Source: Gamarada debralockiae (taxonomy: Eukaryota > Ascomycota > Leotiomycetes > Helotiales > Hyphodiscaceae). Taken from it: 64,000 nucleotides of DNA. The notes beneath the pieces were generated by a model. It did not search any database, was not told where the DNA came from, and was given only the letters and a program-made list of their open reading frames with translations. The translations under genes were made by a program, and so were the position numbers. This document shows, in pieces, positions 8,595 to 30,364 of this stretch. The stretch lies in the NCBI GenBank assembly GCA_002803225.1, contig NXFV01000405.1, forward strand, positions 1-64,000, written 5' to 3'. Numbering within the stretch: position 1 is the stretch's first letter; the number at the start of each line of letters is the position of its first letter.

Positions 8595-10692
8595 TCAACT
8601 TGAGCCTGAGGCGACAATCATTTGTCCCTCCGTCTTCTCCACATGGTCTGTACCATGTTCCACAATCTTCGATTTCGAATCAATACTGCGATTGAGAAAC
8701 GAGGTCAAGCCAACATCAGTCTGCGCATCCGCTAGCATTTGAGCATCTGCCTCACTGCTGTGACTTCCAAACACCTGGTCCATCTCTTCCAAGGTCCTGT
8801 TCTTGGTCTCCGGCAGATATATCCAGACCCATACAAACCCTGCGGCGAGGAATACGGCGAAGAAAATATACGTTCCCCACGCCCATGCCTTGAACATAGG
8901 AGGCACAAAGAAAGCTATTGCAAAATTGTTGATCCAATTGCTCGACGCCCCAATTGATGCACCTTTGGCGCGAATAGATAACGGGAAGATCTCGGAGATC
9001 AGAGTCCAGGAGACAGGACCCCAGGTGGCACCGAAGCCAGCAATATACACCCAGATGAATGCTGTTGGTGATCGACATGAGTCAAATGTTCAATACTTGA
9101 GAGAAGATTACCTACCGACAGCTATCCAGCCCGCGACGGCATGGTCTATCCAGTCATGGCGAAACTTGGCAACAATTATTCCGACTATTACCATAGAGAT
9201 GCCCATTACTGCGGACCCGATCAGCAGCATGGGCTTTCTTCCGACTTTGTCGATAATCATCATCGCAGGCAAAGTGCTGATGAAAAATACAACGCCGGTC
9301 ACTCCCGTTGCGAGCATCGCAACTGTGACTGACGACAGACCCAGACTGACGAAGACATTCGTGGCATAATATATGACTGCAAAACCCCGTCAGCAATGCA
9401 CTTCATCCAAATCGAAGGTGGATCTATCTTACTGGCATCAATTCCACTCCACTGCTGGAAAAACATCACCAACCAGGCCATTGTCACCCTCTTAAAGTTA
9501 TCCTTCGTCCGGAAACAATTGGCATACTGCGCAACTTCTCGAACCCAGACACTGCCCTCCTCCTTAGCAGCCAAGTTCGGAAAAGCCATCATGAAAGCTC
9601 TCTTTTCGAATAATGCCTCAGCCTTGATTTCCAGATACTCGATTTGCACCAGCTCATCATCAACAGGAAGATTTCGCAGGAATGCGAGAGTCTTGATGGC
9701 CTTCTCATCCTTCCCAGCTTTCACGAGCCATCGAGGCGAGTACGGCATGAACCAGATACCGATTGCTAGGCAAATTGCAGGAATACCTTGAATAATTGTC
9801 GGGAGCCGCCAAGCAAGATTCGACTGAGTTGAGCCTGTGCCGCCGATATAATTGCTGCCGTAGCCAATCCAGAATGACGACATGATTCCCAGAATAGTAG
9901 CGAACTGATAGAAAGATACCAGTGTTCCTCGAATTTCTGGTGCAGCAAGTTCTGCATTGTACAGAGGACTGTCTCATAGATTAGAGGGTATAGGCGCCTT
10001 GAGACTGCAGAACATACCCAACCCCACTGAATGTTCCCACACCAAGTCCAGTGAAGAATCTACCAGCGTAGAGCAGCGGCGACTGACCAGCTTTTGCACC
10101 AGTGTACAAGTAGCTACCGAGAATTACCCAGCAACACCCCATAAACATTGTGTGCTTCCGCGAAAAGATTTCTCCGAAAACGCCTGCAGTGAGGGCTCCT
10201 GTCCAGCCTCCAAGTTGAAGAATAGAAGTCAGCCATCCCGTCGCACTGGATGAGTTGATCTGGCCTTGACGTTAGCTTTTCTCTATCCGAAGTAATTGCG
10301 TGTATGTTCCAAGTGCAAAATTGACGAAGTTACCGGACGAGCGTCCCATGTCACGGCCCTCACTCGGTCCTCGTCCGGAAGGGATCATTTGGGAATACAC
10401 GTACGACGTTCGGGAAATTCTCCTTGAATTTATGCATGACCAGCGACTGGCCTAAGACTCCTTGCTGATAGCCATACTCGAAACCACCGAACCTAGGATT
10501 TGTTAGCCATGGACAAGAGTTCCGTGTTGTTGGTCAGCTCGAGAGATCATTGCCCTAAACTCACGATGCAAAGAGTGCAATGAAGACGATTTTCTTGTTT
10601 GACCAAATGAGCTGAAATCTATTCTTGCGCGCCAGTTGGCGGCGCCTGAGGGCGGTTGTCCCCTCGAGGTCGAATGGGGTTTCAGTAACCAT
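8595..10692 (-). CDS. MFS sugar transporter, SP family (573 aa)
   Basis: Plasma-membrane sugar/H+ symporter of the MFS sugar-porter family. Six exons: 10692-10565, 10492-10405, 10259-10018, 9968-9433, 9376-9116, 9061-8595. All junctions are GT-AG and the frame is closed throughout. Signatures in order: GGFEYGYQQGVLG in TM1, GRFFTGLGVGTFSG, PEIRGTL, PYSPRWLVKAGKDEKA (the PESPRWL region), FFQQWSGIDAIIYYAT (the QQ-G-YY sugar-binding helix), KVGRKPMLL, FGATWGPVSW with SEIFPLSIRAKG, and PETKNRTLEEMDQVF at the end of the last helix. Length is normal for the family. The upstream side faces the DUF1593 gene across 940 bp with two CreA-type motifs. Substrate cannot be read from sequence; the neighbours (alditol dehydrogenase, xylose-reductase-type enzyme) suggest a pentose, alditol or related sugar. 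Confidence 0.9.
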
Positions 10693-11632
10693 TGTCGTCT
10701 AGATGCCCACTTTTCGCGCAACGCTGAATTATGGGAAAGATGGGGAAGTTCTGGGAATGGAAGTATTTATGAGGTTCGAAGGCCGACGAGAAAAGACACC
10801 TAGTTAAGTGAATCATCTTTCTGGATTACCGTGTGCATGGGTGTTAGCTGCTGAGTTGAGCTTAATTTTCTACTGATGAAATGAGGTGATATTAACCCAC
10901 TCCTGTACATAAAACGGCATAGGAGGCAACGAGACCTCTTCCATCTCGCGGAATATCTTGCGACGTTCTGGCAAAACCTTTCTAAACTTTCAAGATGCGG
11001 TCATCATTTTTCTCTGGTTTTCCTCTACGCCCCTCAAATCTTCTGTTGGCCAACGAGGTGTGCTTCCCCGCGACCCCACATTTGGAAATTTTATGACTGC
11101 CCCCGTACTCGTGACTAAGAGTATCGGTGGTGCAGCAGCCGTCCCCTGTAACTTTCAGCGGGTCTACCTTATCAAAGTGTTACTGATCTGCAATTTCAAT
11201 CCGTCACAGAACACTCAACAGTTCTTTCTCTGCGTCCTCTTAGCAAATAATTAGGAGAGACCAATGATACTGCGTATGAGCAATACGGAAAGCGCCATTC
11301 TCCGCAGCTTGAATGATGGCGTAGGGATAAACCCAATATCTGTTCACGGGCCTTTTTCGGTGTTACATGCGTTTCAGTGACCGTCAATAGCCATTGTGCC
11401 TACAACTGCCTATCCCCACTCTTGGCAGGAGGGGTTGGAATTGCTCATTTTTTGCAGCGGGCGATCCACGATCCGGCCCCGTCCTGAGCCTCGCGACGCG
11501 ACTGTTCGGGGACTCTTGTAGTCACCAGTCGAAGCTTCAAAAGCCAACGAGTTATGGAAGAGCTGTGACCGAGGATTGTGTAATAGATTTTTATTCCTGA
11601 CCTCAGCTCCGATATCAGCTTTTGCCGATGCC
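10693..11632. promoter_or_regulatory. Divergent promoter between transporter and DUF1593 gene, with paired CreA-type sites
   Basis: 940 bp separate the two ATGs. CCCCGC at 11066-11071 and CCCCAC at 11074-11079 both match the complement of the carbon-catabolite repressor consensus SYGGRG. They are two bases apart, the close-pair arrangement known from CreA-controlled promoters. No gene is seen inside. Confidence 0.45.
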
Positions 11633-13084
11633 ATGGTGTCCAAGGACTTCCAGAATATCCCCGCATTCAAATCCAAACCTCACATCGCTGTCCTCACAGA
11701 CATCTGCAATGAGCCCGACGATGCAGAGTCTATGACGCGATTCTTACTCTACGCCAACGAATTCTCAATTGATGCTCTTGTAGCTACCACATCAACATGG
11801 CAACGAAACTCGACTCACAAGGAGCAAATCCACCAAATCATTGATGCATACGATGGAGTAGTGGGTATTCTGAACGCACACGTTCCTCCCTCACGGCCAT
11901 TCCCCAGGTCAGATTCTCTGCGAGCTGTTGTCCGCTCCGGGTTGAATTCATATGGAATGGAAGCCGCTCGCGGTTCATTGAGCGAAGGGACTGAACTCCT
12001 CATTGAGGCGGTGGATTCTATCACATCAGACAGCTACATTTGGGTTCTAATATGGGGTGGTGCAAATGTCCTTGCACAAGCATTGCTCGAGGTTCAGAGA
12101 ACCAGAAGCGCCGAGGCACTCGCAGAGTTTGCATCGAAGCTTCGAATCTACGCGATATCCGACCAAGATGATGCCGGCCCATGGATTCGATTGAACTTCC
12201 CGAGAATATTTTACATTGCGAGTGTACATGCTTTTAATATGTATGGCTTGGCAGCTTGGTCTGGCATTAGCGGTGAATCATACTATGGATTCAACTTCGG
12301 CGGTCCTGACACAAGTCTTGTGACGAAAGAGTGGTTGAAGAAGAACATCCAAATCGGTCCATACGGGAGTGCTGCATATCCCGACCCAGTCTTCATTCCA
12401 GAAGGTGACACACCGACTTTCCTCTCCATCGTCCAAAATGGGCTTACGGATCCTCTGCATCCGGAGTGGGGAGGCTGGGGAGGTCGCTATTTGCTCACAG
12501 ATCCAACGCGTGCGAGTTTGCATTACAGCGATGCGGCGGATTCGGTGATAGGGAAGGATGGGAAGACACATATTGGTAGCCAAGCGACGATTTGGCGTTG
12601 GCGGGAAGCGTATCAAGGTGATTTCGCTGCGCGCATACAATGGACGATACACTCAGAGTTCTCATCAGCAAATCATGCACCGGTGATAGTTTTGAATGGC
12701 GATACCGAATTGGAACCCTTGCATGTAAAAGCAGGCTTCGGCGAAACTGTTCACCTCGATGCGTCGCAAAGTTGGGATCCGGATTCCGGCGATGAACTGG
12801 AGTTTAAGTGGCTACATTATCGCGAACCAAGTGCGACGCAATGGACAGTTGGATTCGAAGTTCCAGAATTGAACTTTGTGGATGTGTCGCAGGCCAATAG
12901 GAAGATGGAAAAGGTTGAGGTAAATCTTCCCGGGAAGGATGAGGGATGTGTATTTCCTTTGGATGAGACGAAACTCATGAAGTGGGGTCCTAAGACGTAT
13001 CATCTGATCTTGGAAGTTGTAGATAACGGGAAGTTTCCTATGAGAAGCTATCGAAGAGTTTTGGTGGAAGTTGGGAGTGAGTGA
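11633..13084 (+). CDS. DUF1593 / nucleoside-hydrolase-like protein with C-terminal Ig-like domain (483 aa)
   Basis: Single-exon gene. The start is set at the ATG at 11633 (context gccATGg); the frame is open upstream but has no earlier ATG. The N-terminal half begins PHIAVLTDICNEPDDAESMTRFLLYANEF, the acidic cluster typical of nucleoside-hydrolase-like folds, and continues with DALVATTSTWQ, the VWGG-like LIWGGANVLAQAL and a YAISDQDDAGPW loop, all typical of DUF1593 proteins. The last about 120 residues (NHAPVIVLNGD, LDASQSWDPDSGDELEFKW) form an Ig/cadherin-like beta domain usually paired with DUF1593. No signal peptide follows the chosen ATG, so it is probably cytosolic unless an upstream exon exists. 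The exact reaction of the family is poorly known; a glycoside- or nucleoside-type hydrolase is inferred from fold and from its place among sugar genes. Confidence 0.8.
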   Translation: MVSKDFQNIPAFKSKPHIAVLTDICNEPDDAESMTRFLLYANEFSIDALVATTSTWQRNSTHKEQIHQIIDAYDGVVGILNAHVPPSRPFPRSDSLRAVVRSGLNSYGMEAARGSLSEGTELLIEAVDSITSDSYIWVLIWGGANVLAQALLEVQRTRSAEALAEFASKLRIYAISDQDDAGPWIRLNFPRIFYIASVHAFNMYGLAAWSGISGESYYGFNFGGPDTSLVTKEWLKKNIQIGPYGSAAYPDPVFIPEGDTPTFLSIVQNGLTDPLHPEWGGWGGRYLLTDPTRASLHYSDAADSVIGKDGKTHIGSQATIWRWREAYQGDFAARIQWTIHSEFSSANHAPVIVLNGDTELEPLHVKAGFGETVHLDASQSWDPDSGDELEFKWLHYREPSATQWTVGFEVPELNFVDVSQANRKMEKVEVNLPGKDEGCVFPLDETKLMKWGPKTYHLILEVVDNGKFPMRSYRRVLVEVGSE

Positions 13085-13304
13085 AATGGCAGCTGAAGGA
13101 ATGTTTAACTAGCCCAAGACAATTGGCAGCCCAAAACTCTTCGGAAATTATTGGACACAATGGGAGCCTCCGTTCTATCTATCCAAGAGATAATATTTGG
13201 CATTATATGAGTTTAATCAAACGTCTTCGTCGCTCAGTGGTTGATTTGGTTCCGGGGGTTTTTTTTTTCAGCGAACAAAGGCCTGTAAATTTAGCGATCA
13301 ACAG

Positions 13305-13334
13305 CCCGAAGCTCCCCGAAGCTCCCCGAAGCTC
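13305..13334. repeat. Short tandem repeat, 10-bp unit
   Basis: GCTCCCCGAA occurs twice in tandem, flanked by partial units, just beyond the convergent 3' ends of two genes and a T-run. Likely simple-sequence slippage. Confidence 0.6.
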
Positions 13335-13375
13335 GCGAATTTTTGGAATCAGTTAAGTGACACAGGAGAAATCTA

Positions 13376-14770
13376 TTAAGATTTGAAGTCTATATCACTG
13401 TTATCTACCACCTGCACCTTTATGCTTCCTTTGCTCACATCGGAGCATAACTCCATGGCAGAGACCGCTTCCTCGAGCGGGAAAGTATGCGTTACTAACT
13501 TGTCCAGATTGAGAATGCCTCCCGACAAGGCACTGATTCCAGCAGGCCAAGTATCAGCGTATCTGTTAATGAATTTGAGGTTAATCTGAACATTGCAAAT
13601 TAGCATTCATGCACCCATGCTGTAATGCTCACCTCACCTCTGCCAAAGAAATGTGCATGAACGGAAGGTTGTTCATGATGTCCCTCCCCACGCCAATGAC
13701 CATCAAATCCCCTCCCCTCCGTACTGTGTAGGCCGCAGTGATGACACTGCTTTCTACCCCAGTACACTCCAATATTGTCTCCGGAGCCTCGTACTCAACC
13801 CTTCCAAACAAATTTCGAATAGCTTTGGCGTTACCTTTCGCGTCGAGGCTTCGATTGACTTGGTACGTTTGGCAAGATGGTACAAATTCTTTGGCAAAGG
13901 CTAACCGGCCAGGCTCCAAGTCAGTAATCACGATTGGATGTGCACCGGAAGCCCTCGCTGCAGCAAGAGCGATCAATCCGATAGGTCCTGCCCCACAGAT
14001 GAGGACTCCCCGTCCGAGTGCCAACCGCGTGCGTGAGATGCCATGCATCACAACCGAAAGAGGTTCGAGTAGAGCGCCTTGGGCGAAAGTTAGATTGCCT
14101 GGAAGCCTAGTCACGGTAAGCAATCATTCTTGGTCATGAACTATCAAAAGAAAAGCGAGCTGACTTGTGTACCCATCTCGCCGGATGAACCTTATATCGT
14201 TGCAATGAGCCATGATGCGGATAGACCCCAGCAAACTTCACTTCCTCGCAAAGATTGTATCTCCCATTCGTGCAAAGAAAGCAGGTTCCGCAAGGCACGC
14301 CGGGTTCCATGGCAACACGGTCCCCCTTTCGCAACTTTTCCACCCCTTCGCCGACCTCGAGGACGATGCCAGCAGCTTCATGCCCCAGTATGCAATCGCC
14401 TTCCACCGTTAAGCTGCCGATTGCACCTGTCTTCCAGAAGTGTATATCTGAGCTAGGAAACTGTCAGTAAACGTCAGGGCCGTGAGGATAATTGAATGGG
14501 TGAGTAGTCGTACCCACAAATTCCAGTGACTTTTATATGCAAAAGCACTTCTCCCTTTCCTGGCTTGGGGATAGGTGCATCAACTATTTTTATCCTGTGG
14601 TCTTTGGTAACCTGCAGACTTGGATTTTGCCCAAGTTTCATTTCCTCGACAGTTGATGAGGCGACATCGACTTCTGTGGCACAGCATGGCGATACTCTCA
14701 ATTTCGAGCAAGATTTCAGTGATTCTGCGTTGGAAGGCGTTGGAATTGCCTCTACCAGTGATGGTGCCAT
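13376..14770 (-). CDS. Zinc-dependent alditol dehydrogenase, L-arabinitol 4-dehydrogenase/sorbitol dehydrogenase type (407 aa)
   Basis: Medium-chain dehydrogenase that would oxidise an alditol to a ketose with NAD+. Four exons: 14770-14514, 14452-14165, 14106-13638, 13585-13376. The second intron uses a gtcagc donor; the others are gtacga and gtgagg. Catalytic zinc ligands are C85 (GICGSD) and H110-E111 (GHEAAG). The structural-zinc quartet C140/C143/C146/C154 is complete. GAGPIG (220-225) is the nucleotide-binding turn, and D244 at the end of the next strand (VITDLEP) favours NAD+ over NADP+. ALLEPLSV, ECTGVESSV and YADTWP are features shared with fungal L-arabinitol dehydrogenases. A leader of about 45 residues precedes the domain; it may be real or an over-long start. 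It is divergent from the xylose-reductase-type gene 420 bp away, matching consecutive steps of pentose catabolism. The precise substrate is inferred. Confidence 0.88.
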
Positions 14771-15190
14771 CGGGATAAATCAATTTGAACAATCTCAGCT
14801 CGAGAGACTTCTGTGTGTGAGTGTGGCTTACACGCAGAGGTGCGATGCAGCTCCATATGACGAAGGCCAAAAAAATAATTTTGCTTGTGATACCAGACAG
14901 TTTAGCAGTGTTCAAGGTTCGGTGTAGTTGGTGCCATGGCCTGAACTTGGATGGTGGGTAAACTTGGTGTGGCAGGAGCAGCCGCCGAGAAAGGAAAGTC
15001 GAAGCACTCGCGGAATCAAGGCCGATCCTACTGTTGCAGGGGAGGTATAGAATTTGACGAGCTTGAGCTTCAGTGTGATAATAAAATTCAGATTTTCTGT
15101 TAGTTTACTTTGGCACTTTGCAAATCTCTCCAATTTTTCCAAGAACCTTTCATGTTAAGCATTGAAGACCGAAGTTGGTCCCGAGAAGAA
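14771..15190. promoter_or_regulatory. Shared 420-bp promoter of the dehydrogenase and the aldo/keto reductase
   Basis: Short divergent intergenic region between two enzymes of one likely pathway, arranged for co-regulation. I see no clear SYGGRG motif. The reductase frame is open upstream to an in-frame ATG at 15152, but that has a weaker context than 15191. Confidence 0.45.
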
Positions 15191-16288
15191 ATGGCGACTC
15201 AAACAGTCAGGCTTGCATCAGGTTATACCATGCCTCTCGTGGGCTTTGGTCTCTGGAAAGTCGATCAAGCTACAACAGCAGAGACAGTGTACGCGGCGAT
15301 TCAGACGGGATACAGGCTGTTTGATGGTGCTTACGACTATGCCAACGAGAAGGAAGCTGGAGAGGGCATCCAACGAGCCATCAAAAATGGGCTTGTCAAA
15401 CGAGAGGACATTTTCGTGACCACAAAATTGTGGAATAATTATCACAAGAAGTAAGTTACCAAAAGTTGATGAATGTGCAAAGACTGACGAGAACAGAGAG
15501 CATGTAAAGCAGATGGGCCACTTCCAATGCGATACATGGGGGCTGGGCTACATCGATCTTTTCTTGATCCATTTCCCCGTCGCATTGGAATACATCGAAC
15601 CTTCCGAACTTCAATACCCAGCTTGGTGGATGGATGCCTCCCACGAGACTGTCTCGGTCGCTAAAGTCCCAATCATGGAGACTTGGCAAGCCATGGAAGC
15701 TCTTGTTGACGAAGGTGTCTGCCAGTCTATTGGTGTTTCCAACTTCTCAACACAGCTCCTCTACGATGTTATTTCATATGCGCGACATCCCATCTCAAGT
15801 CTTCAAATCGAGCACCATCCATACCTCGTCCAACCCCAGCTTATTCAAATGGCGCAGGAAGAAGGAATTGTTGTCACAGGGTACTCAACATTTGGCCCTC
15901 AGAGCTTCTTGGAGTTGCCACCTGCGTTCAGAAAGAGAGCGATTGGTGTTCCAATGTTGTTTGACAGTCCGGTCATCAAGAAGATTGCAGAGAAGTATGG
16001 GAGGTCTGCTGGTCAAGTTCTTTTGAGATGGGCGACCCAGAGGTAAGTTCTTTTCTTTCCAAATTCTCAATCCTGGTCATTTTGATGGTGCAAAACTGAC
16101 TATGCGGCAGGGGCATCGCGGTGATCCCGAAATCAAACAATAAGGCTCGTCTGCAACAGAACCTTGAAGTTAACGACTTTTCGATGACGAGGGAGGAGTT
16201 GGACGAGATTACTAGCCTCGATCGTGGGTTGCGGTTTAACGATCCTGGGTTTTATCTGCCTGAGCGTCCCATTCGCATTTTTGATTGA
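15191..16288 (+). CDS. Aldo/keto reductase, D-xylose reductase type (327 aa)
   Basis: AKR-family (beta/alpha)8 enzyme expected to reduce an aldose such as xylose or arabinose to its alditol with NAD(P)H. Exons 15191-15450, 15497-16042, 16111-16288; introns of 46 and 68 bp, gtaagt donors. The start at 15191 has the better context (gaaATGg). The catalytic tetrad is complete: D45 and Y50 in the [12 protein letters not shown] segment, K79 (VTTKLW), H112 (LIHFPVA). The [10 protein letters not shown] loop, VGVSNF-like IGVSNFS, and IPKSNN followed by R three residues on are typical of xylose reductases, where the K-S-N-R group binds the cofactor phosphate. The C-terminus [14 protein letters not shown] also fits. 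Next to an alditol dehydrogenase and two sugar transporters, a role in pentose entry is the natural inference. Confidence 0.88.
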
Positions 16289-16479
16289 CAGTGGACGCGG
16301 GATGTCTTGATACCTTTCTGGAGCCTTGGAAATGTAAAAGTTGAAGGAATAAATTGGCCTTTAGGTTGCGAATAATCTCATCGGCGACATCAGGTTGCCC
16401 CTCCACAAAAGGTTTTCGTTATATATCATAATTTGGCATGGAATCCGGCGTTGGAGCGCAGTAGCTCTTGGTATTGTAG

Positions 16480-18150
16480 TCACAACGATGCATTTCGATC
16501 ATAACCCCAAACTTCTTTCAAGTCAGAAATTCTCCATTTACCACCCCACCCAGTTTTCATTTCAATAGAGGCGATCAAATCCGCCACCGCTTTATGTTCT
16601 ACGGGATGGCTCAGGAGCTTCCCGGCAACCCACAGAGGCTGAATGGCATTATTCAAACAACCGTGATGCTCGTTGGTTGCGGAAATCCCACAGATCCGCC
16701 GTGCGTGCCATAATTTTGATCCAAGCTGCCCCAGTTGTTGCAAGGTGATTGAAAGTGGGCGCATGTCGAGCATGAGCAAGCAAGCCGTATGGTAAAGCTG
16801 GTTCGACGAGATGGCGCATGGAGCGGCGTAGAGGATGAACGGGAAGGGGCCGTTGTCTAAATCTTCAGGCGAGTCTGAAAAGTCGAGTGGGAGAAGTTCA
16901 GGAGGTCGATCGCGGCTCCAGTCTTGAAGTTCAAGCCAAAGCTTGTGCCATGAGTGAATGAAAGGTTCATCCCCATGGTTGCTCTCAATGTCTCGAGCTG
17001 CAGTTGTTTGTTGCCACATGAGATGGCATACACACGAAGAAAGATACACGGCGTAGTTTGCCCACATATCCGGTATGCCAGACGAACGAAATAAGTTGGC
17101 CGCAGTTTCATGTCCATGTCCGGGTGGCAGCCAGTTCTGGAGAGGCAAGACCACGCTCTCTTCACCTGCTGATATTATTGCGGCGCAAAGGTCTGAGAAG
17201 CATATCAGTTCATTGTTTCGTGCTTGAAGCAGAGTCAGCCATCTTACCCATTCTTGCATAACACCAGAAGACAGCCTGTAGGAGACCACCACTAAAACCG
17301 TGAATCGAGTGACTGGAGAGAAGCGCTGCGCATCCGTCTAGATGTTTTCTCCAATTCCAAGGTGATGCTGACATCATTTCCAAAACGCAAAGAATAACGC
17401 AAGTCGCCATGATATTTGGATCCCGAGCTAGTAGATTTGGGGTGAGACTTCGGATTGCTTCTTGGTAAAGTTGAAGGCTGTCATGGTAGCCCGACTGCTT
17501 CCTCTGCCTTTCCATCTGTCGAGCTGAAATCGCCAACATAGCGTAGACAAGGGGCACTGATGACTGCGATAATAACGGCACCTTCGTTCCAAAATGTTGT
17601 TTGGCGTCGAACATATCGAGCTGAAGATTTTCAGGACCTGTTTCCCAATTATTGGGTGATTACTGACCCATGGCGCAACCTCATCAAGGTAGTTCTTCAA
17701 CCACACAACTCTCTCTCCAGTCGAAACCACGGTCTCGATTGCCCCTCCATCGGAAATTTCATGTGGGGAACCTGAAAACGTCGGGTCGTGACCTTCAGGA
17801 GTTCCAACCCGTGTGGGAGCTAGTGATTGGGCACTTGTGAAGAGAAGATCACGCAACTCTCGTTGAGATTCTACGAATCTGGGATCGTTGGTATATTCGT
17901 CGAACCAAGATACAGTTGACAGTCCCAGAACACTGGGTGACACTCCTATCAGCGGATCTGGGGCCCCAGGCTGCTGAGAATCATGGCTGAATTGACCATT
18001 CGGACGGAAAGAATGAAATTCGTTAGGGCTCATAGCCACCTTGTCTTGTGCCCGAGCTTGCGGAGTTCTAGCACACGTTGCAGCATGTCGAAGCGCAACA
18101 GAAGCGAACTCGTCCAAATCCAGACTTCGCTGGATATGTGGGGACTGCAT
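16480..18150 (-). CDS. Fungal_trans_2-type regulator lacking a zinc cluster (522 aa)
   Basis: Nuclear regulator-like protein. Exons 18150-17668, 17620-17248, 17192-16480, with introns of 47 and 55 bp at the same two positions (after the VAPW motif, and before the DLCAAI/DLATAI motif) as in the Zn2Cys6 gene at 21266-23461. The region after VAPW (LDMFDAK, LVYAMLAISARQMER, NWRKHLDGCAALLSS, LLQAVFWCYARMDL, GGKWRISDLKEVW) is the acidic-helical middle homology region of ARCA-like proteins. No CX2CX6C motif exists in the gene or in 600 bp upstream: the ATG at 18150 is preceded in frame by TAG. It therefore should not bind DNA by itself. It could be a co-regulator or inhibitor, or have lost its first exon. 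It is divergent from sugar transporter 18739. Confidence 0.75.
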
Positions 18151-18738
18151 CTAGAGGGAAGCTGATCGGGAGCTCGGGGTGTCTGCGAATTCGCTGATGG
18201 ATGTTCGAGTCGTGTGATCCAGGTAGAGGGGGCCGCTCCAATTGTCATCAGACTCGCCATATGCAGAAGAGTAGAAGACCCTAGCTGAGAGTGCAAGATC
18301 TCCAATGCTGGATTAATTGCTGAGACTCGTGGAGAGGCACAGTAGGTCAGGTGTTGTGTGGACAGTTTCATGCTGTCGTGACGTTTTGGCCGCTTAATGG
18401 GGATTCTTCGGCAGTATGCCCATCCCCTGAACGCATCTGAGAGTGGAAGCTGGAGCCACCACTTTCAAAACGCAGATCCTTGAGTTATGCTTCTCCGCCG
18501 CAAAACAGGATTCCCCTCCACCAAGCACCCCGCAACTTCCTCCCCCACGGAACCCCGCCCCACTCTTCAATGACTAAGGTGGAAGCAGTTGTCAAATCCC
18601 CAGAATTACGTCCTAGGATCGTGGGGATTCTTTGCTTCGGGCTATATATGCTAGGAACGGTTCCTCTTTTCGGAAACATACCATTTACTGTCTGCAGCTT
18701 CTCACATACCACCTGTCAAGGCCTACAAATTCGAAATC
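18151..18738. promoter_or_regulatory. Divergent promoter with a cluster of CreA-type motifs
   Basis: Six matches to SYGGRG (either strand) fall within about 134 bp: 18493-18498, 18528-18533, 18543-18548, 18553-18558, 18558-18563 (overlapping the previous by one base) and 18621-18626. At uniform base use one match is expected per about 256 bp. The cluster sits 113-246 bp before the transporter ATG and 340-475 bp before the regulator ATG, so it can serve either or both. Inference: glucose repression of the cluster. Confidence 0.5.
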
Positions 18739-20749
18739 ATGGAAGAAGTCAAGTCCGACAAGATCGATCCCCAATATCTCGAGCACATCGATGAGCAGGC
18801 CGGTCATATTGCCAACCAAGAAGACCACGAGACTACCGCAATTCAGGCTCTGGGGAAGAACCCTAAGACTGTACTTTGGTGCGCCTACGCTATCTGGCTC
18901 TTGGTTCTGAACAGCTTTGAGAATCAAGCGGGTGGAAGCGCACTAGGTATACCTCAATTCAGGTAGGTTCCACGTCCCGTTAAACTCCTTCCCACTGACC
19001 ATTTATCCAGGAAAGATTTCGGTTACAAGTTTGGCGACGAATATGTCTTGCCTGCCGATTGGCAAGGAGCTTTCAGCGGAGGGCCGGTTGCATCGTAAGA
19101 TCATTCCTCTGTTGAGATCATACAGATGTAAATTTCGAGCAGGGCGGTGCTGGGATCCATTGCAGCTGGATGGATTGCCGATAAAATTGGTCGCAAGCTG
19201 TCGTTCGCAGTAGCCTTCATATTCTCTGCTGTCGGAATTACCCTCGAAGTGGTTTCAACGACATCTCCTGTCTTCTTCGCTGGCAAATTTATCAACGGCC
19301 TCGCGATTGGTGTCTTCATTGCAATTTCGTTCACATACGTTGGCGAAGTGTGTATTTCCATCTTGCGTACTATATTAGCGCTAATATCTATGTAGATTGC
19401 TCCAACTGCTCTTCGAGGGGTTCTGAGCAGTGCTGCTGCTATAGCATTTACTTTCGGACCATTTCTTGTCGCGCTCATACAAAAGGGAGAAGGTTCCAAG
19501 ACCACGCGCTGGGCTTACAGATCATTATTCATATCCCAATACGGTGTTTTGGCAGTTGGACTTGCAGGATGGCCTTTCATGCCAGAGTATATTACATCCT
19601 GTTTAAATTTGCCGTGAACATCAAGTATACTAACCTCTTCCAGATCTCCTTGGTGGCTACTCAGCAAAGGCAAAGAAGCTAAAGCAGCAAAAGCTTTGAA
19701 AGCTCTTGGATATTCGACTGTCGATGTTGAAAAACGAATGGCTACAATCACACTGACTCTTGAAGAGGTCCGGCGGGAAACGGAGGGCGCAAGCTTCATG
19801 GAGTGCTTCAGAAAGTCGAATATGCGCCGTACGATGATCTCAATCGCTCCTCTCTGTATACAATCTCTATCCGGGATTTGTCAGTCGCTCTGTTGTTCAG
19901 TATCTAATAGTCTGCTAACATCTGAATAGACTTCATGAGCGCATACTCAACTTACTACTACGAAACAGTTTACTCTGCGGACGAAAGCTTTGTTCTCCAG
20001 ATCATTCAGCAGGTTGTTTCTCTTCTTGGAAACATTTGCTCGTGGTTTATTGTCGACCGCCTGGGAAGACGAAATTCTCAGTTTTATGGTCTCTTGCTCT
20101 TGACTGTCGTTTTATTGATTACGGCAGGCCTCGCAACTAACGGAACTCCCAAGTCACTCAAAGGATCCTGTGCCTTGATCATTTTCTATTGCTTTGCATA
20201 CAAGTATATTCTAAATTTCCCGCAAGGATGGGACAAAATTTCTAGGGACACTCAAAGTTGACTGACGAATGAACAGTGTTACAATTGGAGCAACTGCATT
20301 TACAATCTTGACAGAAACTTCGACTTCTCGTCTACGAGTCAAGACAATCGCAATCGGTAATGCTTTGCAGAACGGACTCAACGTAAGGACTCTTGTTTGC
20401 CATCAACCACCATCAGTTTTGCTAATTGGCCATTCATCTAGACTATGTGGTCTTTCGTCTTTCCATATATCTTTAACGCCGACAGGGCAAACCTGGTAGG
20501 TCTTCCTAACCTTGCTGAAGCTCCAATCTAACTTCTTTGCAGGGTGGCAAGAGCCTGTTCATTTTTGGTGGATTGGCCGTTTTATGCTTGGTTTATCTCT
20601 GGATTTTCCAACCCGAGACCCGTGGACGAACATATGAAGAACTTGACGAGATGTTTATGAAGGGTGTTTCCGCCAGAAAATTCAACACCTACACTACGGA
20701 GGCGGAATTGAAGGGCAGACAGGCGAAAGAGATTCAAGAAGGAAGCTGA
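18739..20749 (+). CDS. MFS sugar transporter, maltose-permease-like SP subfamily (526 aa)
   Basis: Second sugar/H+ symporter of the cluster. Nine exons: 18739-18962, 19011-19094, 19143-19347, 19396-19586, 19644-19879, 19930-20203, 20277-20382, 20442-20495, 20543-20749. All introns are 46-73 bp GT-AG and the frame closes. Signatures: ENQAGGSALGIPQF, DWQGAFSGGP, GWIADKIGRKLSF, INGLAIGVF, ESPWWLLSKGKEAKA, SAYSTYYYETVY, VDRLGRRNSQFYG, TETSTSRLRVKTIAIGNA and the closing FQPETRGRTYEELDEMF. The ESPWWLL version of the PESPRWL motif and the STYYYE helix resemble the alpha-glucoside/maltose permease branch rather than the branch of the 8595-10692 transporter. The two transporters therefore probably handle different sugars or affinities. 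It is flanked by the two regulators. The intergenic region upstream holds the CreA-type cluster. Confidence 0.9.
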
Positions 20750-21265
20750 AGACTGGTAGAATTCAACATAGTCAAACCTGGCTGTATATAACTCCATTAC
20801 ATACAGTATCTTAGATCAGAGCTATGGAAATTCACGTCGGCGACTTTAGGCTAGAACAGCCCGTATCTGAATCTGTTGGACCGTCGTACAGGCTACCAGT
20901 CGCTAAATGCCTCGCTGAAATTTGATGATGTCTTTCGACCGAACCAGGCTTAAAACGAACTGCCACCAATATAACAGTTTCCCTGTCCCTTATAATGGCT
21001 CTCATATGAAGTACATGAGCATTAATAGCCCCATCAAACTCAAGTCAAACAGGATAGTCACGTGGTCGTGATAGTGGCTGAGATTGCCGAGAAAGTGGGG
21101 AAGAGTTGAACATCATTTTACGACTTTCGTGTTTCTCCAAATTTCCACCCAAGTCGCGATGCCAGGCAACAAGTCGATGATATTGCTAAACTGGTTAAAG
21201 CAATTAGCACTGCATATGGTTATCGCATGAACTGATTGTGATTGAGGCCTGCCCGACAATTCCTC
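20750..21265. other. 516-bp intergenic region upstream of the Zn2Cys6 regulator
   Basis: Contains a CACGTG at about 21060-21065, but no gene or other clear motif. It must include the promoter of the regulator downstream. Confidence 0.4.
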
Positions 21266-23461
21266 ATGTCGCCCCACTGCGCAGAAAGATCAGAGAGGAC
21301 GGCAAATACTCCGCACGCGAGAACAAGACATGGGTGTTGGACATGCCGGAAAAGACGACGGAAATGTAAGAATGTCTCCTTACAAAGTCCTATACCGATT
21401 TTCCACGTCGGTTTCTTGCATTGATTTCGATGGCCGATACATTCAATCCATCTGTGAAGTTGCTGGAATTGGAACTGACTGGCTGCAGGTGACGAACAAA
21501 AGCCGCGATGCCAAAACTGCATTGGCAAAGGTCTCAAATGTCAATATGGCTTGCAATTGACATTTAACGAGGCCAACCTCTTCAAGTTGATGCCAAACGA
21601 GGCAAAAGCTCTAAGTGAGCAAGCACCTGATCGTTACCAAACTCTACAGGTGAGGGACCTCCAGATTTCTTGAATACATTGAGTTACTGATGCTGGACAG
21701 TTTGTTGATGGTATGGAGGATGTTCAAGAAGAATCGCGAAATAGCAAGGGAGAGGAGGAGGCCAGAAATGTCGGCGGATTACCGACGTCAAGCTCCGGCG
21801 GAGAGGTACATTACGAGCAAGCTCGCAGTATGCCTCAAGTAATGAACGACGTATCACCAAGTAACGACCATACACATGATTCATACAACCCACTTCAAGA
21901 TGAGGCCCACTACGGGTCTCAAGCTTCGTTTGATCCACAGGGTCTCGAACACGTATTGTGCGAGGGAGCTCACACCTCCAACGCTCGATCTCTTCAATCG
22001 CCGTGCGGGGAGCCCTCAAGAAGATTTGGAGACGGCGACGCAGGGCACACGTATTCTCCTCCACTTGGTTCGACCACAATATGTGATGGAGGACGCCAAC
22101 AATCCTACATTTTCACGCTGCCACCAATCAGCTCGCTACGAAATGACAACGGCCTATCGTCAGCTGCTAGTAGACATTCAAACGTCCAACCAACAGCAGT
22201 GGTCTTAGAACACAATCCGAAGACAGATCGAGAATTAATGAAATACTTCATTGATAAAGTTGCACCCTGGGTATGAGCGAATTCCCTTAGCCTTTGGTCG
22301 AATTTGTGCTTTTGCTAATGCCCCGCAGCTTGATCTATGCGATCCAATCTCATCATATGCAACGCACCTGCCGATAGCATCATCCAGTTTCTCCCCATTA
22401 CGACTTGCAATCCTTTCACTATCGGCAAGTCAAGCGTCCAAGTTCCAAAGCTCGGCATTGGCCGATATCAATGAATCCGTACCCCGAATTCTTGGTTCAG
22501 ACATGTACAGTCTGCGCGAAGAAGCAATTTCAGCTCGGAATCTGCTTCAAATAGCATTCGTATTATCCCATCCACTTCATGGCTGGCGATCGCTGTTGGC
22601 ACCGCACGCATCATATCTCGATGAGATGGGGTTTCATGGGTTTCGAGTTGGTCATCTGCGAGCTGCTGCTTGGGTCACGCTGCGCTTTGGTATGTTAGTC
22701 CTCAATCCACTACGAATCCTCATTTCCTTTGATTTTCTGGCTTCAACTCACACTTCACAGACCTTGCAACAGCGATCAATTCTCATTCGCCCATTCTCAT
22801 GAAGCTCAGCCAATGGCAGTACTCTTCAACTGAGTCTGCACCCTCAACTCAGTCAGCAATACAGACAACCTCCCACCTAGAAGATGCTCTCCTTCTCTGC
22901 GCCGACATCGCAAATCTCGCCTTCTCACAAAGCATCGAATCTCATACGACTTCTGAAATTTGGAGAAGGTTCTACGCTCAGTTCCAGAATATACAAAACT
23001 ACCAACAATCAGAATCCCTCCTTCCCCTTCTGAGTTCTCAAATCGGCTCTCGCGCTTTCTCGAAGCCCGGCCCACAGCCATCAGCCACTTATGTCCCCAG
23101 CGAATTCCCACTGCACGTCCACACCAACCGTGTCTCATTCTACACTGCCTTTCTGGTTCATCTCATCTCAATGCTTCTCTTGATTTCAGGACCTCGAAAC
23201 ATTGAGCGCACAATGTGCAGCAAGCTCAAAACGACGACATGGCACGCTGTACAAATTTGTGGACTATCAATGAGTAATAATATTTTGTGGTCGTGGGACC
23301 CTGTCATCGTAGCTGCACTACTGCATGCTGGGCAGTCTTTGAGCTACGGGGCCCAGCAAATGGAGCTATTGCGGCATTTGAGAAGGCTGGAGAAGACAAC
23401 AGGATGGAAGTTTGGTGGCGAAGTGGGTCAGCTTGAGGAACTTTGGAGAGTCAGCTCATAG
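21266..23461 (+). CDS. Zn2Cys6 transcription factor, ARCA-like (630 aa)
   Basis: DNA-binding activator or repressor, nuclear. Exons 21266-21365, 21489-21649, 21701-22270, 22329-22689, 22761-23461; the first intron (123 bp) splits a zinc-cluster cysteine codon. The cluster is complete: C24-X2-C27-X6-C34-X6-C41-X2-C44-X6-C51, within GCWTCRKRRRKC and DEQKPRCQNC. A low-complexity linker (residues about 90-270) precedes the VAPW-LDLCDP start of the Fungal_trans_2 middle region, ending LEKTTGWKFGGEVGQLEELW, like the C-terminus of its paralogue at 16480. ARCA-type proteins are known as regulators of carbon-source genes. Position at the end of a transporter-enzyme block suggests it is the pathway-specific regulator. 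The start at 21266 is the first ATG of an open frame. Confidence 0.88.
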
Positions 23462-24147: not shown

Positions 24148-25616
24148 GGCGCCGGGAACCATTGCCCATAATTCTAAGAGCATATGCCTACGGTTTTCTC
24201 AACGTCCTTAATGCCAAGTTCCAGACTACGCTCAACATCACAGCAGAGAAAGCGGGCGGTTTGCAAGACACATACTTTAGAGCATACTTCATTAGACCCT
24301 TTACGTAACTCAGGATGGATCGTTCGAAAGTTTGGGTACTACATCTCAACCATCCCTAATCCCCTCTCTTAACCCGAAGCCACATACTGATAATTCCTCT
24401 CAGATACCGCAGGACATTCATAACAAGTTTCTACAACTACGGCGTTGGCGCAGTCATGTTATGGCCATGCGCTGTCTATCGCAGGCTTCTGCGGCTCGCT
24501 TTTCATCGTCAGTTCCGGATTCTCGATTTTCGAAACCTCCGCAGATTCTTTCATCGCTACCTGTTGTACGCCACGACTTTCTGAATTGCGTCTGGAGCTT
24601 TCGCAGTCCTTCCAAGCCGTCGGCTCCGTCATGGCTCCGCTGCTCGCATCCCGTATGTCCTTTAGCCACACTGCTCCCAACGACTTAAATGAAGCCCAAT
24701 GGACATACCTTGGCATAGCAGCGTTCGTCTTCCTTCTTACTGTCGTGTTCTTCTTCGGTCCCCATTCCTGAGGCCACGGATGCAGATATGGCACTGCAGG
24801 CTGAACAATGCTCTGGCTTAACTGGGTATGTGGAGAAGCCAATGAAGAGGCAGTATAAATTGATGTTCGGTGTCGCTGCACAATTCTGCTATGGTTCGTA
24901 CTCCGTCCAGCTCCATTGGCGAAGTGTTGTTGACTCCAATACCCGAAACAGTTAGCGTTCAAGTGGGAGTTGCAGCAAACATCATCAACTACGTCTGCGA
25001 ATCAGCACACGTCTCGGCTGCAGCTAGATCCGACCTATACGCAATCGCGCAAGGTCTCTTTGCCATCGGCCAATTTGCGGCCGCTGGTCTGATGATGTTC
25101 GTCAAGCCTCGCATCGTGCTCATGGCCTTCATGACTGCAATCATGATTTTCATCGACGCAGCAATCGGCGTTCACGGTGAAGGCAGTGTTACCCTCCTCC
25201 CCCTCGTCCTCTTTTTCGAGCGTTGCATCTTCCCCACGATCTTCACGCTCTCCATCCACGGTCTAGGTCGTCACACCAAACGCGGTAGCTCTTGGGTCGT
25301 AGCTTCAGTCGGCGGAGGAGCAATGTCCCCGTTTCTAGCGAGATTATTGGCAGATAGGAAGGGCTATCATGTCTCTATGGCCGTCCCTCTGTATGGGTTC
25401 TTTGTTATCTTTGCGTTTCTAATTTATTTGAATACGTTCTATAGGAGGGAAGTAGATGGATTTAGGGAGACGAAGATTGGATATGTGGATGGTGATGGAT
25501 TTGTAGGTGATCCGGATCGGGAGTTGAGGAGAGCGAGTTTGAGTTTTGAAGAGAAGGGCGTTAAGGCCATGGGGGATCATTTGGAGGGTGGGGAGGTAAG
25601 CTCGACGAAGGAATGA
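24148..25616 (+). pseudogene. FucP-like MFS permease (L-fucose/hexose symporter family), frameshifted
   Basis: Remnant of a proton/sugar symporter of the L-fucose permease branch. Family segments appear in order but in changing frames: AYAYGFLNVLNAKFQTTLN, LQDTYFRAYFIRPFT; one extra base near 24305, then SGWIVRKFGY; a 76-bp GT-AG intron; RRTFITSFYNYGVGAVMLWPCAVY; a second shift near 24480, then AGFCGSLFIVSSGFSIFETSAD and LSQSFQAVGSVMAPLLAS; a third shift (extra C) near 24765, then IPEATDADMALQAE and FCY; a second intron; and an intact C-terminal half (VGVAANIINYVCE to the stop). The missing TM1 Met-rich start and three shifts make it non-functional. Its C-terminal half is well preserved, so loss looks recent. 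It lies beside the intact sugar cluster. Confidence 0.8.
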
Positions 25617-27776: not shown

Positions 27777-30364
27777 TTATGGTGCGTCGTTATTCCCCAG
27801 AAGAGCTCTCGGTGTTTCGAACGTCGCGGTGATCCATCTGTCTTCGCCCTTTTCGGCCGCAGCGTCGCCAGATGATGCTAAGAGCCTCTGATTGTTAATA
27901 TACAAACTATCCCGCAATCTTCTGCGTTTACGGCGTGAACGGTTGTTCGAACTACCACCGCGCTCGGCGCCAACAGAAGTTTGAATTTCAGCCACTGTAA
28001 TCGGGGCTGTGTTGACTGTGGACCGTAGTTCTCTCGTCCTTCTTTTCTCATTGACCTTTTTACCATTCCCAAATGACTTGTACCATAATGAAAGTTTCTT
28101 TGAAAATGACATAGCCTTGACACGGCATAATAGGTCACCATGACGCAGTATCTCAATTGCCTCGTCCATGTATTGAAAACACAAGTTACGATCGTGTTGC
28201 TTCCCACGTCCTTTACCATCCCCACTGGAAGTGTTAAGATAGTGAATCGAGAGCAAATTTGTTGAGAATGCAAAAGCACGAGCGGCTGTGTTGTATTTGA
28301 GGGCTTCCGCTCTCACACGGTCCTGGCAGATCTTTGCCGTCTCACTCCTGAGACTAGCAGCTCGATGCACGACGATTTCGGAGTTAAACTTCTTTTTAGA
28401 CGTTGCGTACGTATAATCGTGCAGAAGGGCAATTCCAGGCTCCGAGTTCGAGTATGTATTGCCTTGGTTCTCGTTGGATTTCAGGAGCAGCTCGTACATT
28501 GACACTAACGAATCCTCGCTCACGTCGAACTTGCTCTTCCACCGTTTGCTGCAATGCGATGCCATGCTAAGTACAATAGCATGATTATGTCCAATCATTT
28601 CTCCCAACTTATGAATAGCCTTCCAGTACCCCAGACATAGTGTTCTTATAAAGTCACGATGCTCAGAGGCCAAGACGTGGCGCAACGATTCCACGAACAC
28701 CACTAAGGGGTGTTGTTTCCCCAGGGAATCCGAAAGTAGATATTTCAAGCGTTGGAGGAAAACTTGTACAAAAATAAATGCAGGAACGTGAACGCTGCTG
28801 CGAAGGCGGATATCTGAGAGAGCAAGACATATTCTCCAGAAGTGAATCAGAATACCGGGATCGCACGATTTCGTAGCAGCTTTCATGGCCTGAGAGACTT
28901 GGCCGAGCAAGAAATTGACATGGCTGTACCATTCTGCCTGGGCCAGATCAGCAATGCTATCACATTGATCTGATAGCAGTTGCCATATCTTTGATTTATC
29001 CAAAGCTCCGTGGGGAGGCTTGAATGCGACGGTGCCAGCAGTCCAACTCTTATTTTTCCCTGCAGCAAAACATTTTTTGATAAATTCATCGATTGCATGC
29101 AACATTTGTTCTTGATAAAGCTGGGTTCTAGATATGAAGCATGCTGGTTCGGGTATGGCGCTTTCTTTGAACCTTCTGAATTCGAAAGCCGAAGCTCTCG
29201 CCAGCCGCATCTCGGCCTTGTTCTTAGGCAATCGTAGCGCTCGGTGGCGCGGTGTCTCCCCTTTATCCTCAATTCTGTTCTTTCGGAATTCTGGCCATTG
29301 ACGAAACTTGCTCTCGTATGTACTCACCCTGTTTCGATCAGTCAACACGAGGCAGAATTACTGAGAGGTCGTTCCCAGACTTACGCAAATGTAAAATTAT
29401 GGATCACAGACATTTCAAATTCCAATTCCTCCATCGTGTGCTTTTGCTCGATGTATAACCGGTATAGGTGCTCCCGCATGGATTCCCATTTCTCCTTCGA
29501 AATTCTGGGTTTCTTGCATTGGCCGCTGGCATTACCCTTTTTCCGAGTTCGGGAAGGAACGGTTACCAGTTCAATTGTAATCCCGGCTGGGTCTGGCTCT
29601 GCATGGCTGAGGATATTCGCATTGATATCATCACCGCTGGGAGCCCAGTTGAAGCTATCTGGTTGAAAACCATTTGCCTGGTCCTGGTAAATGGTGGAAT
29701 AGAATGGATCGTCATCGTTCAGACCTTGCATTTGAGCTTCGGTTTGTAAATCTGTCTGGAAGAAGTTTTGATTGAATAAGGACCTATTGCGGATATCTTC
29801 GAGATTACCTTGATCGGTGATACCGCAGACTCCAGTCTGCGGAAAATTGGCGTTGGATGCTTCTTGGTCCGACACTCCATCGGAACCGGATTGGTTGAAG
29901 GTGTGGTTAACCACGCTAGTCTCGTTCAAGTTATGCCCAAAAGCCTGTATCATGCTGAAATCGGCCATATCATTGAATTCATTCGGATAGGAATTGATAC
30001 CTCTGCCACCCGTATTTAACATCTCGTCGAGGTCATTTGGGTTGATTGCACAATTGATGCTGCCAGGAAGAGCAGCACCAATAGGAGTATTGTAGCCGAA
30101 AATTCGGGGATGAACTTCTAGCACGGAGAGGTTCGCTTGGAGAGCATTGTTGTAAGGACCATGTTGGCCGGGGAATTGAATGCCTTCCTGATTCGACAAT
30201 CCGCTAAAGTCTTCATCAAGAATTCCATGGGCCATATTCTGAAGAGCAATGTCGATAGAGCCGTCATGGCTGAAGTCGAAGTTATCGAACATACCAATTT
30301 GACAGTCTTGACCGACACTTTGGTTAGAAATGGGGGCTACAGCCATTCGCTCGTAGTCGTCCAT
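27777..30364 (-). CDS. Clr5-domain protein with helical C-terminal region (843 aa)
   Basis: Two exons, 30364-29385 and 29328-27777, joined by a 56-bp intron (gtaagt donor) that lies inside the Clr5 domain. The first about 285 residues are acidic and Asn/Gln-rich, probably disordered. The Clr5 domain follows (about 287-340): SKEKWESMREHLYRLYIEQ, HTMEELEFEM, then across the junction FTFAVSTYESKFRQW, the usual W-R-LY-MEEL-F-Y-FRQW pattern. Clr5 domains are known in fungal nuclear and heterochromatin-linked proteins and are common in accessory genes. The remaining 500 residues are alpha-helical with no named domain recognised, ending in a basic RSRRKRRRLRDS stretch that could be a nuclear signal. 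It is divergent from the dynamin gene. Gene reality is firm; its function is not known. Confidence 0.82.

Follow-up and report, generated by a model that had tools for sequence, protein, structure and literature searches.

What is a compact run of two sugar transporters, two oxidoreductases, a DUF1593 protein and two regulators for in the genome of the ascomycete Gamarada debralockiae? In the window, the 64,000-nucleotide stretch of DNA analysed here (contig NXFV01000405.1), the initial annotation had recognized seven consecutive genes at 8595-23461, had read them as a candidate compact cluster for pentose or alditol use and had assigned them one shared job.

Organization of the locus

All seven genes were found intact, with Pfam backing for every protein. 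Each gene model runs from ATG to stop, with GT...AG introns only and no internal stops. For four of the seven genes codon-bias prediction was too weak until their starts, stops and splice sites had been placed manually, and some start codons and splice sites in the models are hand-placed.

The first gene, T1 (10692-8595, minus strand), encodes a 573-aa MFS sugar porter in six exons (Sugar_tr, 375 bits) and is separated by a 940-bp divergent promoter region (10693..11632) from the intronless gene for a 483-aa DUF1593/Sde182 nucleoside-hydrolase-like protein (11633-13084, plus strand; PF07632 and PF21027). Convergent with the latter is MDR (14770-13376, minus strand; four exons, 407 aa; ADH_N, 100 bits), a zinc-type polyol dehydrogenase, which shares a 420-bp divergent promoter region (14771..15190) with AKR (15191-16288, plus strand; three exons, 327 aa; Aldo_ket_red, 162 bits), a xylose-reductase-type aldo-keto reductase. 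AKR converges in turn with the regulator gene REG1 (18150-16480, minus strand; three exons, 522 aa), which is joined through a 588-bp divergent promoter region (18151..18738) to T2, a second MFS sugar porter (18739-20749, plus strand; nine exons, 526 aa; Sugar_tr, 243 bits). REG2 (21266-23461, plus strand; five exons, 630 aa; Zn_clus, 42.7 bits) is a Zn2Cys6 regulator whose zinc cluster is interrupted by intron 1. Three divergent promoters is the number that had been proposed.

The description of REG1 as a regulator without a zinc cluster was likewise borne out by Pfam, which assigned it Fungal_trans_2 and no Zn_clus. A 1.25-kb stretch upstream of REG1 contains no CX2CX6C motif, and a zinc motif is visible by eye in the frames of its paralogue (C543). 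No spaced CGG/CCG pair (gaps 0-14) was present in at least three of the four intergenic regions. The best solved-structure relatives of T1 are STP10 and XylE, and its nearest other match in the same genome (C566) is at 50%. The nearest other match of T2 is at 54%, on contig C820, all remaining matches being at 40% or less; on C820 this T2-type carrier gene is divergent to the genome's closest DUF1593 copy (49%).

The two oxidoreductases stand apart from the canonical pentose enzymes

MDR had been described as an L-arabinitol/sorbitol-type dehydrogenase; the superfamily assignment held, and at two specificity sites the protein proved to be neither LAD nor SDH. It has the MDR domains, the zinc ligands and the NAD-site Asp in common with N. 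crassa LAD (3m6i; 52% identity), and the zinc ligands Cys, His and Glu are constant across its best 120 homologues. At the two substrate-pocket sites, however, the window protein and all 120 of these homologues carry Leu and Asn, in place of the Met and Tyr of LAD (LadA M70 and Y318) or the Phe and Phe of SDH. Met and Tyr are found in 3m6i and in the canonical LAD of the same genome, which lies on another contig (C76) and is 80% identical to 3m6i. On these residues we reject the identification of MDR as LAD or SDH, and by sequence MDR belongs to a separate subfamily, apart from both.

LadB was also set aside, on a weak hint: the A. nidulans ladB (AN4336) primer in the literature, which we read as ...PMVVTG, would put Met at the first of the two sites. 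MDR is perhaps LadC, which passages of PMC2731777 present as an uncharacterized LadA homologue of Aspergillus nidulans and as a LAD-like MDR group apart from LadA, found in most of the fungi tested there and missing from N. crassa and T. reesei. The window protein is alike in distribution, with no Neurospora or T. reesei protein named among its 120 best matches; the assignment was judged from distribution and relationship.

AKR retains D45, Y50, K79 and H112, which we take to be the AKR catalytic tetrad, and the IPKSN motif. It has both in common with Candida tenuis XR (1jez) and with an XR on another contig of its own genome (C80), which was judged canonical by its look. Identity between AKR and XR-like proteins is 52-57%, with C80 at 57%. 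Residues Y48, T78, W130, Q173, P185 and S187 are constant or nearly so in the AKR subfamily and missing in C80, C319, 1jez and 5zci, and none of the 120 best AKR homologues is nearer to C80 than to the window protein. Judged on its nearest relatives, AKR is not an orthologue of canonical fungal XR, and its residues mark a separate subfamily.

The compact pentose pathway was not upheld. Canonical LAD and canonical-looking XR reside on other contigs, and neither an SDR (L-xylulose reductase type) nor an FGGY kinase (xylulokinase) was found among the seven proteins or the ten long flanking open reading frames.

The DUF1593 protein

The DUF1593 protein scores above the curated cut-offs for both PF07632 (331 vs. 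26.8 bits) and PF21027 (77.5 vs. 27 bits). Pfam has named both domains after the nucleoside-hydrolase-related protein Sde_0182 of Saccharophagus degradans (2yhg). This entry, whose title records an association with carbohydrate metabolism, is the only PDB sequence match, and by far the closest in a fold search with the DUF1593 model (E = 8.9e-38). The same search lists nucleoside hydrolases as weak matches further down, at ranks 8 and 9 (E = 1.5e-3, TM 0.2-0.3). Residues D23, D29, D30, N145 and D259, presumably the nucleoside hydrolase metal ligands, are invariant in all 22 aligned sequences. The fungal protein differs from the bacterial Sde_0182 in that a simple N-terminus check found no signal-peptide-like start, and fungal and bacterial DUF1593 proteins are only 41-47% identical. 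We know of no activity for any member of PF07632/PF21027.

Linkage of the enzyme genes in other ascomycetes

A conserved neighbourhood in other species, proposed earlier as a check with its absence as a refuting result, was present for MDR and AKR and in part for DUF1593, the three enzyme genes covered by the linkage counts. All 20 genomes that appear by name in both tables have their MDR and AKR homologues on one contig (expected, at a genome size of 30 Mb, 1.1); the same is true of DUF1593 and AKR homologues in 11 of 20 (0.95 expected; on different contigs in nine) and of DUF1593 and MDR homologues in 7 of 17 (0.76 expected; on different contigs in ten), linkage being called from matching contig sizes and locus tags in tables whose clustered rows may mix the names and sizes of their members. 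Under a rough model, the linkage of DUF1593 is far over chance (P = 6e-13 with AKR and 5e-7 with MDR).

Sharing a contig is not the same as adjacency, and both gene numbers are visible for six linked pairs only. Near locus tags include V500_08724/08726, G7046_g5448/g5449, G7Z17_g9048/g9049, BP6252_01911/01912 and PV09_04425/04426. As unclear cases, Hyaloscypha variabilis and Trichoderma asperellum were omitted from the MDR-AKR count and Lipomyces starkeyi from the DUF1593-AKR count; Pseudogymnoascus and Coleophoma, where rows give differing strains or species, were omitted from the DUF1593-MDR count, and two more cases in which DUF1593 and AKR lie on contigs of matching length (5059 and 130173) were kept out of the counts.

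A shared job is thus supported for the three enzymes, the part of the earlier claim that stood, because their genes are linked in distant ascomycetes, and the locus has the appearance of a conserved unit of catabolism. Further copies occur on other contigs in two species: a second MDR in Coniochaeta ligniaria and two additional DUF1593 rows in Penicillium salamii.

Genes beside bacterial DUF1593

The best 80 of at least 555 bacterial DUF1593 loci were examined. The N-part of a transketolase is present at 25 loci, the C-part at 24 and both, forming a split AptA/AptB-type pair, at 22. Other neighbours are Rbs-type transporter parts (25-26 loci), DUF2291 (20), an aceric-acid-hydrolase-type gene (15; the first member of this cluster scores 1183 and the second 919, vs. 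a cut-off of 950), FGGY kinase (12) and a GH140-type gene (5), together with GH88 and alpha-rhamnosidase families. At 51 of the 80 loci the transketolase pair and the aceric-acid-hydrolase and GH140 clusters are all absent; many loci are short, and among the 52 with full flanks the same holds for 28.

The AptA, AptB, kinase and transporter proteins of the E. coli SE15 apiose cluster match clusters beside bacterial DUF1593; of the 80 loci, its DUF2291 protein matches none, its SDR proteins four and its regulator one. Fourteen of the 22 genomes with the pair were tested, and in every one the genome's best AptA match is the linked copy (46-51% vs. at most 42% elsewhere). Two linked kinases share with the E. 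coli kinase a leaning to the same glycerol-kinase-like models; as E. coli AplK scores just under the glycerol-kinase model (490 vs. 498), this leaning is no argument against apiose. In a PDB search with a bacterial sugar-binding protein the top matches were ribose binders and nothing pointed to apiose in particular; a search with a bacterial isomerase gave no match. By analogy, the bacterial neighbours suggest D-apiose as a possible food of the fungal cluster. Apiose is a plant cell wall component, according to part of PMC13001218, and its residues link RG-II dimers via borate, as stated in a passage of PMC4404806.

A candidate apiose pathway and its rivals

We tentatively favour, at somewhat less than even chances, a catabolic unit acting on a plant glycoside, with D-apiose as its most likely sugar. 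T2 (and T1) would import an apioside or free apiose; the cytosolic, nucleoside-hydrolase-like DUF1593 protein would split the apiofuranosyl bond; AKR would reduce D-apiose to D-apiitol; and MDR would oxidize apiitol to D-apulose, which would be passed onward by kinases and transketolases encoded elsewhere. REG2 would activate the cluster genes, and REG1, which lacks a zinc cluster for DNA binding, would work through REG2, either by sensing the inducer or as a co-regulator. What we infer here is the substrate, every reaction step, the onward route and the regulator roles.

The linkage of the enzyme genes, the pairing of DUF1593 with T2 at C820, the association of bacterial DUF1593 with apiose and RG-II genes, the non-LAD/SDH pocket of MDR and a GH140-family gene in the fungal genome suggest apiose. 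Against it stand the 51 bacterial loci without marker genes, the 41-47% DUF1593 identity, at which substrates may differ between bacteria and fungi, the genomes in which DUF1593 is unlinked (9 of 20 for AKR, 10 of 17 for MDR), the lack of a close fungal AptA, the few or no loci matched by the E. coli DUF2291, SDR and regulator proteins, and the fact that the two oxidoreductases of E. coli are SDRs.

The same series of steps, from import and intracellular hydrolysis to reduction and oxidation, could serve another rare pectin or plant-glycoside sugar, for example a galactose furanoside or another RG-II sugar. This is possible but doubtful: the bacterial neighbours extend beyond apiose to aceric-acid-hydrolase-type, GH88 and alpha-rhamnosidase genes, and the MDR pocket residues only say "not LAD, not SDH", yet the AptA/AptB-type pair is among the commonest neighbours and is the best E. 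coli AptA match in 14 of 14 genomes.

It is unlikely that the locus works alongside the scattered canonical genes as a compact accessory cluster for the use of xylose, arabinose or the corresponding alditols. Such a role would fit the identities of AKR to XR-like proteins (52-57%) and of MDR to LAD (52%), the checked catalytic residues kept in both, and the ARA1 arabinose regulator that part of PMC5468973 reports from Sordariomycetes and Leotiomycetes. It would leave the DUF1593 protein unexplained, and it conflicts with the location of canonical LAD and canonical-looking XR elsewhere, the missing LAD and SDH residues at both sites in the 120 best MDR homologues, the failure of any of the 120 best AKR homologues to fall nearer to C80, and a cluster without SDR or kinase.

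Quite improbable is nucleoside or riboside salvage, with DUF1593 a true nucleoside hydrolase, AKR converting ribose to ribitol and MDR ribitol to ribulose; the Pfam domain, the weak fold matches at ranks 8 and 9 and the ribose-type transporter at bacterial loci point that way, but 2yhg, with its carbohydrate-metabolism title, is much the nearest fold, a ribose-type transporter is present in the E. coli apiose cluster too, and RG-II-type enzymes occur at some bacterial loci. That the MDR-AKR pair alone is the unit, with DUF1593, transporters and regulators as looser neighbours, is suggested by the linkage counts (20 of 20 vs. 11 of 20 and 7 of 17) and is the least probable reading, given the far-over-chance linkage of DUF1593 and the second DUF1593 pairing with a T2-type carrier at C820.

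Significance and comparison with known systems

Beyond the apiose reading of this locus, a wider proposal, which we hold with more reserve, is that of a first eukaryotic D-apiose pathway in many ascomycetes, in which DUF1593 would be a new (cytosolic) apiofuranosidase family, LadC-type MDRs D-apiitol dehydrogenases and the linked AKRs D-apiose reductases. If true, three gene groups that co-occur in distant ascomycetes (DUF1593, LadC-like dehydrogenases and an XR-like group), and for which we found no function, would gain one. A brief literature search turned up no account of fungal apiose catabolism that stood out, and the term DUF1593 was not found in the literature searched. Whatever the substrate, the locus advises caution before an XR-like or LAD-like gene is given a pentose label, because several MDR and AKR homologues bear names such as "D-xylose reductase" or "L-arabinitol 4-dehydrogenase".

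The proposed route to apulose by reduction and oxidation would contrast with the isomerase of Pectobacterium, for one. The bacterial AptA/AptB pathway has a split transketolase, and the fungus has no close AptA (30-36%, frames of 574-657 aa). The E. coli SE15 apiose cluster is without DUF1593 and has a ribose-type transporter, whereas the fungal cluster uses MFS carriers; its oxidoreductases are SDRs, in place of which the fungal cluster has AKR and MDR. According to part of PMC13001218, these two E. coli oxidoreductases are thought to stand in for apiose isomerase, the same logic as would apply to AKR and MDR.

Gene content and conservation of the cluster

In the 54.3 Mb genome of Gamarada debralockiae (1112 contigs), positions 8595-23461 of the window are occupied by seven complete gene models, all of whose introns run from GT to AG and none of which has a broken frame; the models bear out the three divergent intergenic regions described in the initial annotation. 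Pfam identifies two sugar MFS carriers (T1 and T2), a Sde182/DUF1593 protein, a zinc alcohol dehydrogenase (MDR), an aldo-keto reductase (AKR) and two regulators, one of the Fungal_trans_2 family (REG1) and one Zn2Cys6 protein (REG2). Among the matches listed, the named closest protein relatives include those of Halenospora, Amylocarpus and Leptodontidium, which are Leotiomycetes.

Linkage was counted in genomes named in two of the homologue tables for DUF1593, MDR and AKR (best 120 rows each). MDR and AKR lie on one contig in 20/20 genomes, DUF1593 and AKR in 11 of 20, and DUF1593 and MDR in 7 of 17, against a chance expectation of about 1 per comparison (0.76 to 1.1) for a second gene placed randomly in a 30-Mb genome. 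In Amylocarpus, a related saprotrophic Leotiomycete, a single contig carries all three of these genes. Of the seven genes for which the initial annotation suggested a synteny check, conserved linkage was recovered for MDR and AKR, and in part for DUF1593. Numbered locus tags, visible for six same-contig pairs, differ by 1 to 4 (V500_08724/08726, G7046_g5448/5449, G7Z17_g9049/9048, BP6252_01912/01911, PV09_04426/04425 and PMIN06_007074/007078), with Coleophoma crateriformis as a counter-example (DUF1593 BP5796_04439, AKR BP5796_11855). The organisms with linkage include Leotiomycetes, Sordariomycetes and Dothideomycetes as well as Lipomyces-type yeasts. This is a genuine cluster with a conserved enzyme core. 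No description of it was found in the literature searched on DUF1593, xylose reductase clusters, fungal apiose and LadC; by its genes it is a fungal sugar-catabolic cluster.

Just past REG2, an apparent sugar-permease gene with frame breaks was seen by eye (24300-25616, + strand); Pfam found no family in its longest ORF (24864-25613), and the gene is perhaps a decayed eighth cluster member. Farther along (52775-54186, - strand, and 55329-56350, + strand), another sugar carrier (31-36% to T2) lies near a Zn-cluster fragment and a Fungal_trans ORF, possibly a further transporter-regulator pair. The window also holds an 882-aa dynamin-like GTPase ORF uninterrupted by stops (31102-33750, + strand), an ORF whose end carries a Clr5 domain (29381-30430, - strand) and a weak HET-domain match under the cut-off (1723-2376, - strand).

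Regulators

REG1 had been described as a regulator lacking a zinc cluster, and none is present in its model or within 1.25 kb upstream. Its paralogue on contig C543 (44-47%) has a zinc cluster by eye, divided between two frames, and the split sits about where REG2 has its first intron. Because REG1 lacks the zinc cluster that the paralogue has, its DNA binding has, judging from sequence, probably been lost; as a guess, REG1 might serve as a co-regulator of REG2. No common CGG-type motif was found in the cluster intergenic regions.

MDR and AKR differ from the canonical pentose enzymes

One rival to a plant-glycoside cluster is the compact pentose/alditol pathway first proposed, for which enzyme roles were read from motifs and the shared pathway from adjacency. 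The MDR zinc ligands and NAD-site Asp, as well as the AKR tetrad, are retained. The pathway identity is not borne out, since canonical L-arabinitol 4-dehydrogenase (LAD) and xylose reductase (XR)-like genes lie on other contigs: the C76 protein has 80% identity to N. crassa LAD (3m6i) vs. 52% for the window MDR, and two XR-like genes are on C80 and C319. According to PMC2731777, modelling and mutants set LAD apart from SDH/XDH by LadA M70 and Y318. In the window MDR these two positions are Leu and Asn, as they are in 120/120 listed homologues, which were chosen by similarity as the best rows (lowest identity 65%). Among the best 120 AKR homologues listed, none is nearer to the C80 protein than to the window AKR, and group markers such as T78, Q173 and P185 occur in 120/120, W130 in 119/120 and Y48 in 118/119. 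We infer that the MDR group corresponds to LadC, a LadA homologue for which that paper gives no reported function, present in most tested fungi and absent from N. crassa and T. reesei (PMC2731777). The contig that carries the window has a further aldo-keto reductase, some 77 kb past the cluster (C160:100425-101428, - strand).

DUF1593 and its carrier

A second DUF1593 gene, on C820 (49% identity), is arranged divergently with the genome's nearest relative of T2, also a carrier (54%; no other match exceeds 40%). As an independent instance, this pair lends support to a functional connection between T2-type carriers and DUF1593. Both genes lie within C820:1-10000 (L036), near the contig end, and an amylase-like gene (by eye) follows. 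In a simple hydrophobicity check, a signal-peptide-like start was seen in the product of a third DUF1593 gene (C464, 43%) and in 5/120 listed homologues; it is absent from both the window protein and the C820 protein, which suggests intracellular hydrolysis after import.

The AlphaFold model of DUF1593 (mean pLDDT 79.7, pTM 0.84) is closest in fold to the Saccharophagus degradans protein 2yhg, a relative of nucleoside hydrolases whose title associates it with carbohydrate metabolism; true nucleoside hydrolases match weakly (E 1.5e-3). All 22 aligned sequences share Asp at 23, 29, 30 and 259 together with Asn 145. One homologue (77%) is recorded under the moss Sphagnum balticum, probably as fungal DNA within the moss assembly.

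Bacterial DUF1593 neighbourhoods and apiose degradation

One scan gave at least 555 prokaryotic DUF1593 relatives, of which the best 80 loci were kept; neighbour gene clusters were counted within 10 kb, with labels taken from one or two members per cluster. Rbs-type ABC transporter genes are frequent (ATPase 26/80 loci, permease 25, binding protein 25), as are transketolase N- and C-parts (25 and 24; both together in 22), L-fucose-isomerase-like (23), DUF2291 (20), DeoR (17) and FGGY kinase (12) genes. Others encode GH127 proteins of the aceric-acid-hydrolase type (15; one representative above the NCBIfam cut-off, another just below), pectate-lyase-like proteins (9; a weak match, far under cut-off) and GH140 apiosidase-family proteins (5). 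The transketolase pair, aceric-acid-hydrolase cluster or GH140 occurs in 29/80 loci and none of these in 51, though some neighbours were perhaps missed, as the ORF caller recovers the DUF1593 gene itself in 72/80. Many loci are short; when the count is restricted to the 52 full-flank loci, the pair occurs in 20 and any of the three in 24. Five DUF1593-type ORFs stand in a row in Gaoshiqia sediminis (L079, 7471-14195), and L069, L083 and L129 each have two adjoining DUF1593 genes.

This neighbour set resembles the gene set for bacterial D-apiose degradation. The E. coli SE15 cluster (PMC13001218) comprises two SDRs, an Rbs-type transporter, DUF2291, an FGGY kinase, a regulator and the AptA and AptB transketolase parts. 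E. coli AptA matches the neighbour cluster in 25 loci (median 48% identity), AptB in 24 (41%), the kinase in 12 (37%), the transporter parts in 25-26, the SDRs in 4 each and the regulator in 1; the DUF2291 protein has no match among the 80 loci. The E. coli kinase and both linked kinases examined favour glycerol-kinase models. In control whole-genome searches with AptA, covering 14 of the 22 genomes with a linked pair, the linked copy, identified by its calculated position, was the best match in 14/14 (46-51% vs. at most 42% for other copies). Of 12 other genomes searched, three have their best match inside the DUF1593 locus (L070, L106, L116) and one probably at its edge (L075), four have an AptA-like gene (44-79%) outside it, and the remaining four show nothing above 40%. 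No close AptA was found in the fungal genome (best matches 30-36%).

D-apiose is the best candidate for the substrate of the fungal cluster. A GH140/Apiosidase-family gene above the Pfam cut-off (C200:132593-133906) could encode an enzyme releasing apiose extracellularly. E. coli is without apiose isomerase, and two oxidoreductases are proposed as its replacement (PMC13001218). The fungal AKR and MDR may be a similar stand-in, with the AKR reducing apiose to apiitol and the MDR oxidizing apiitol to apulose.
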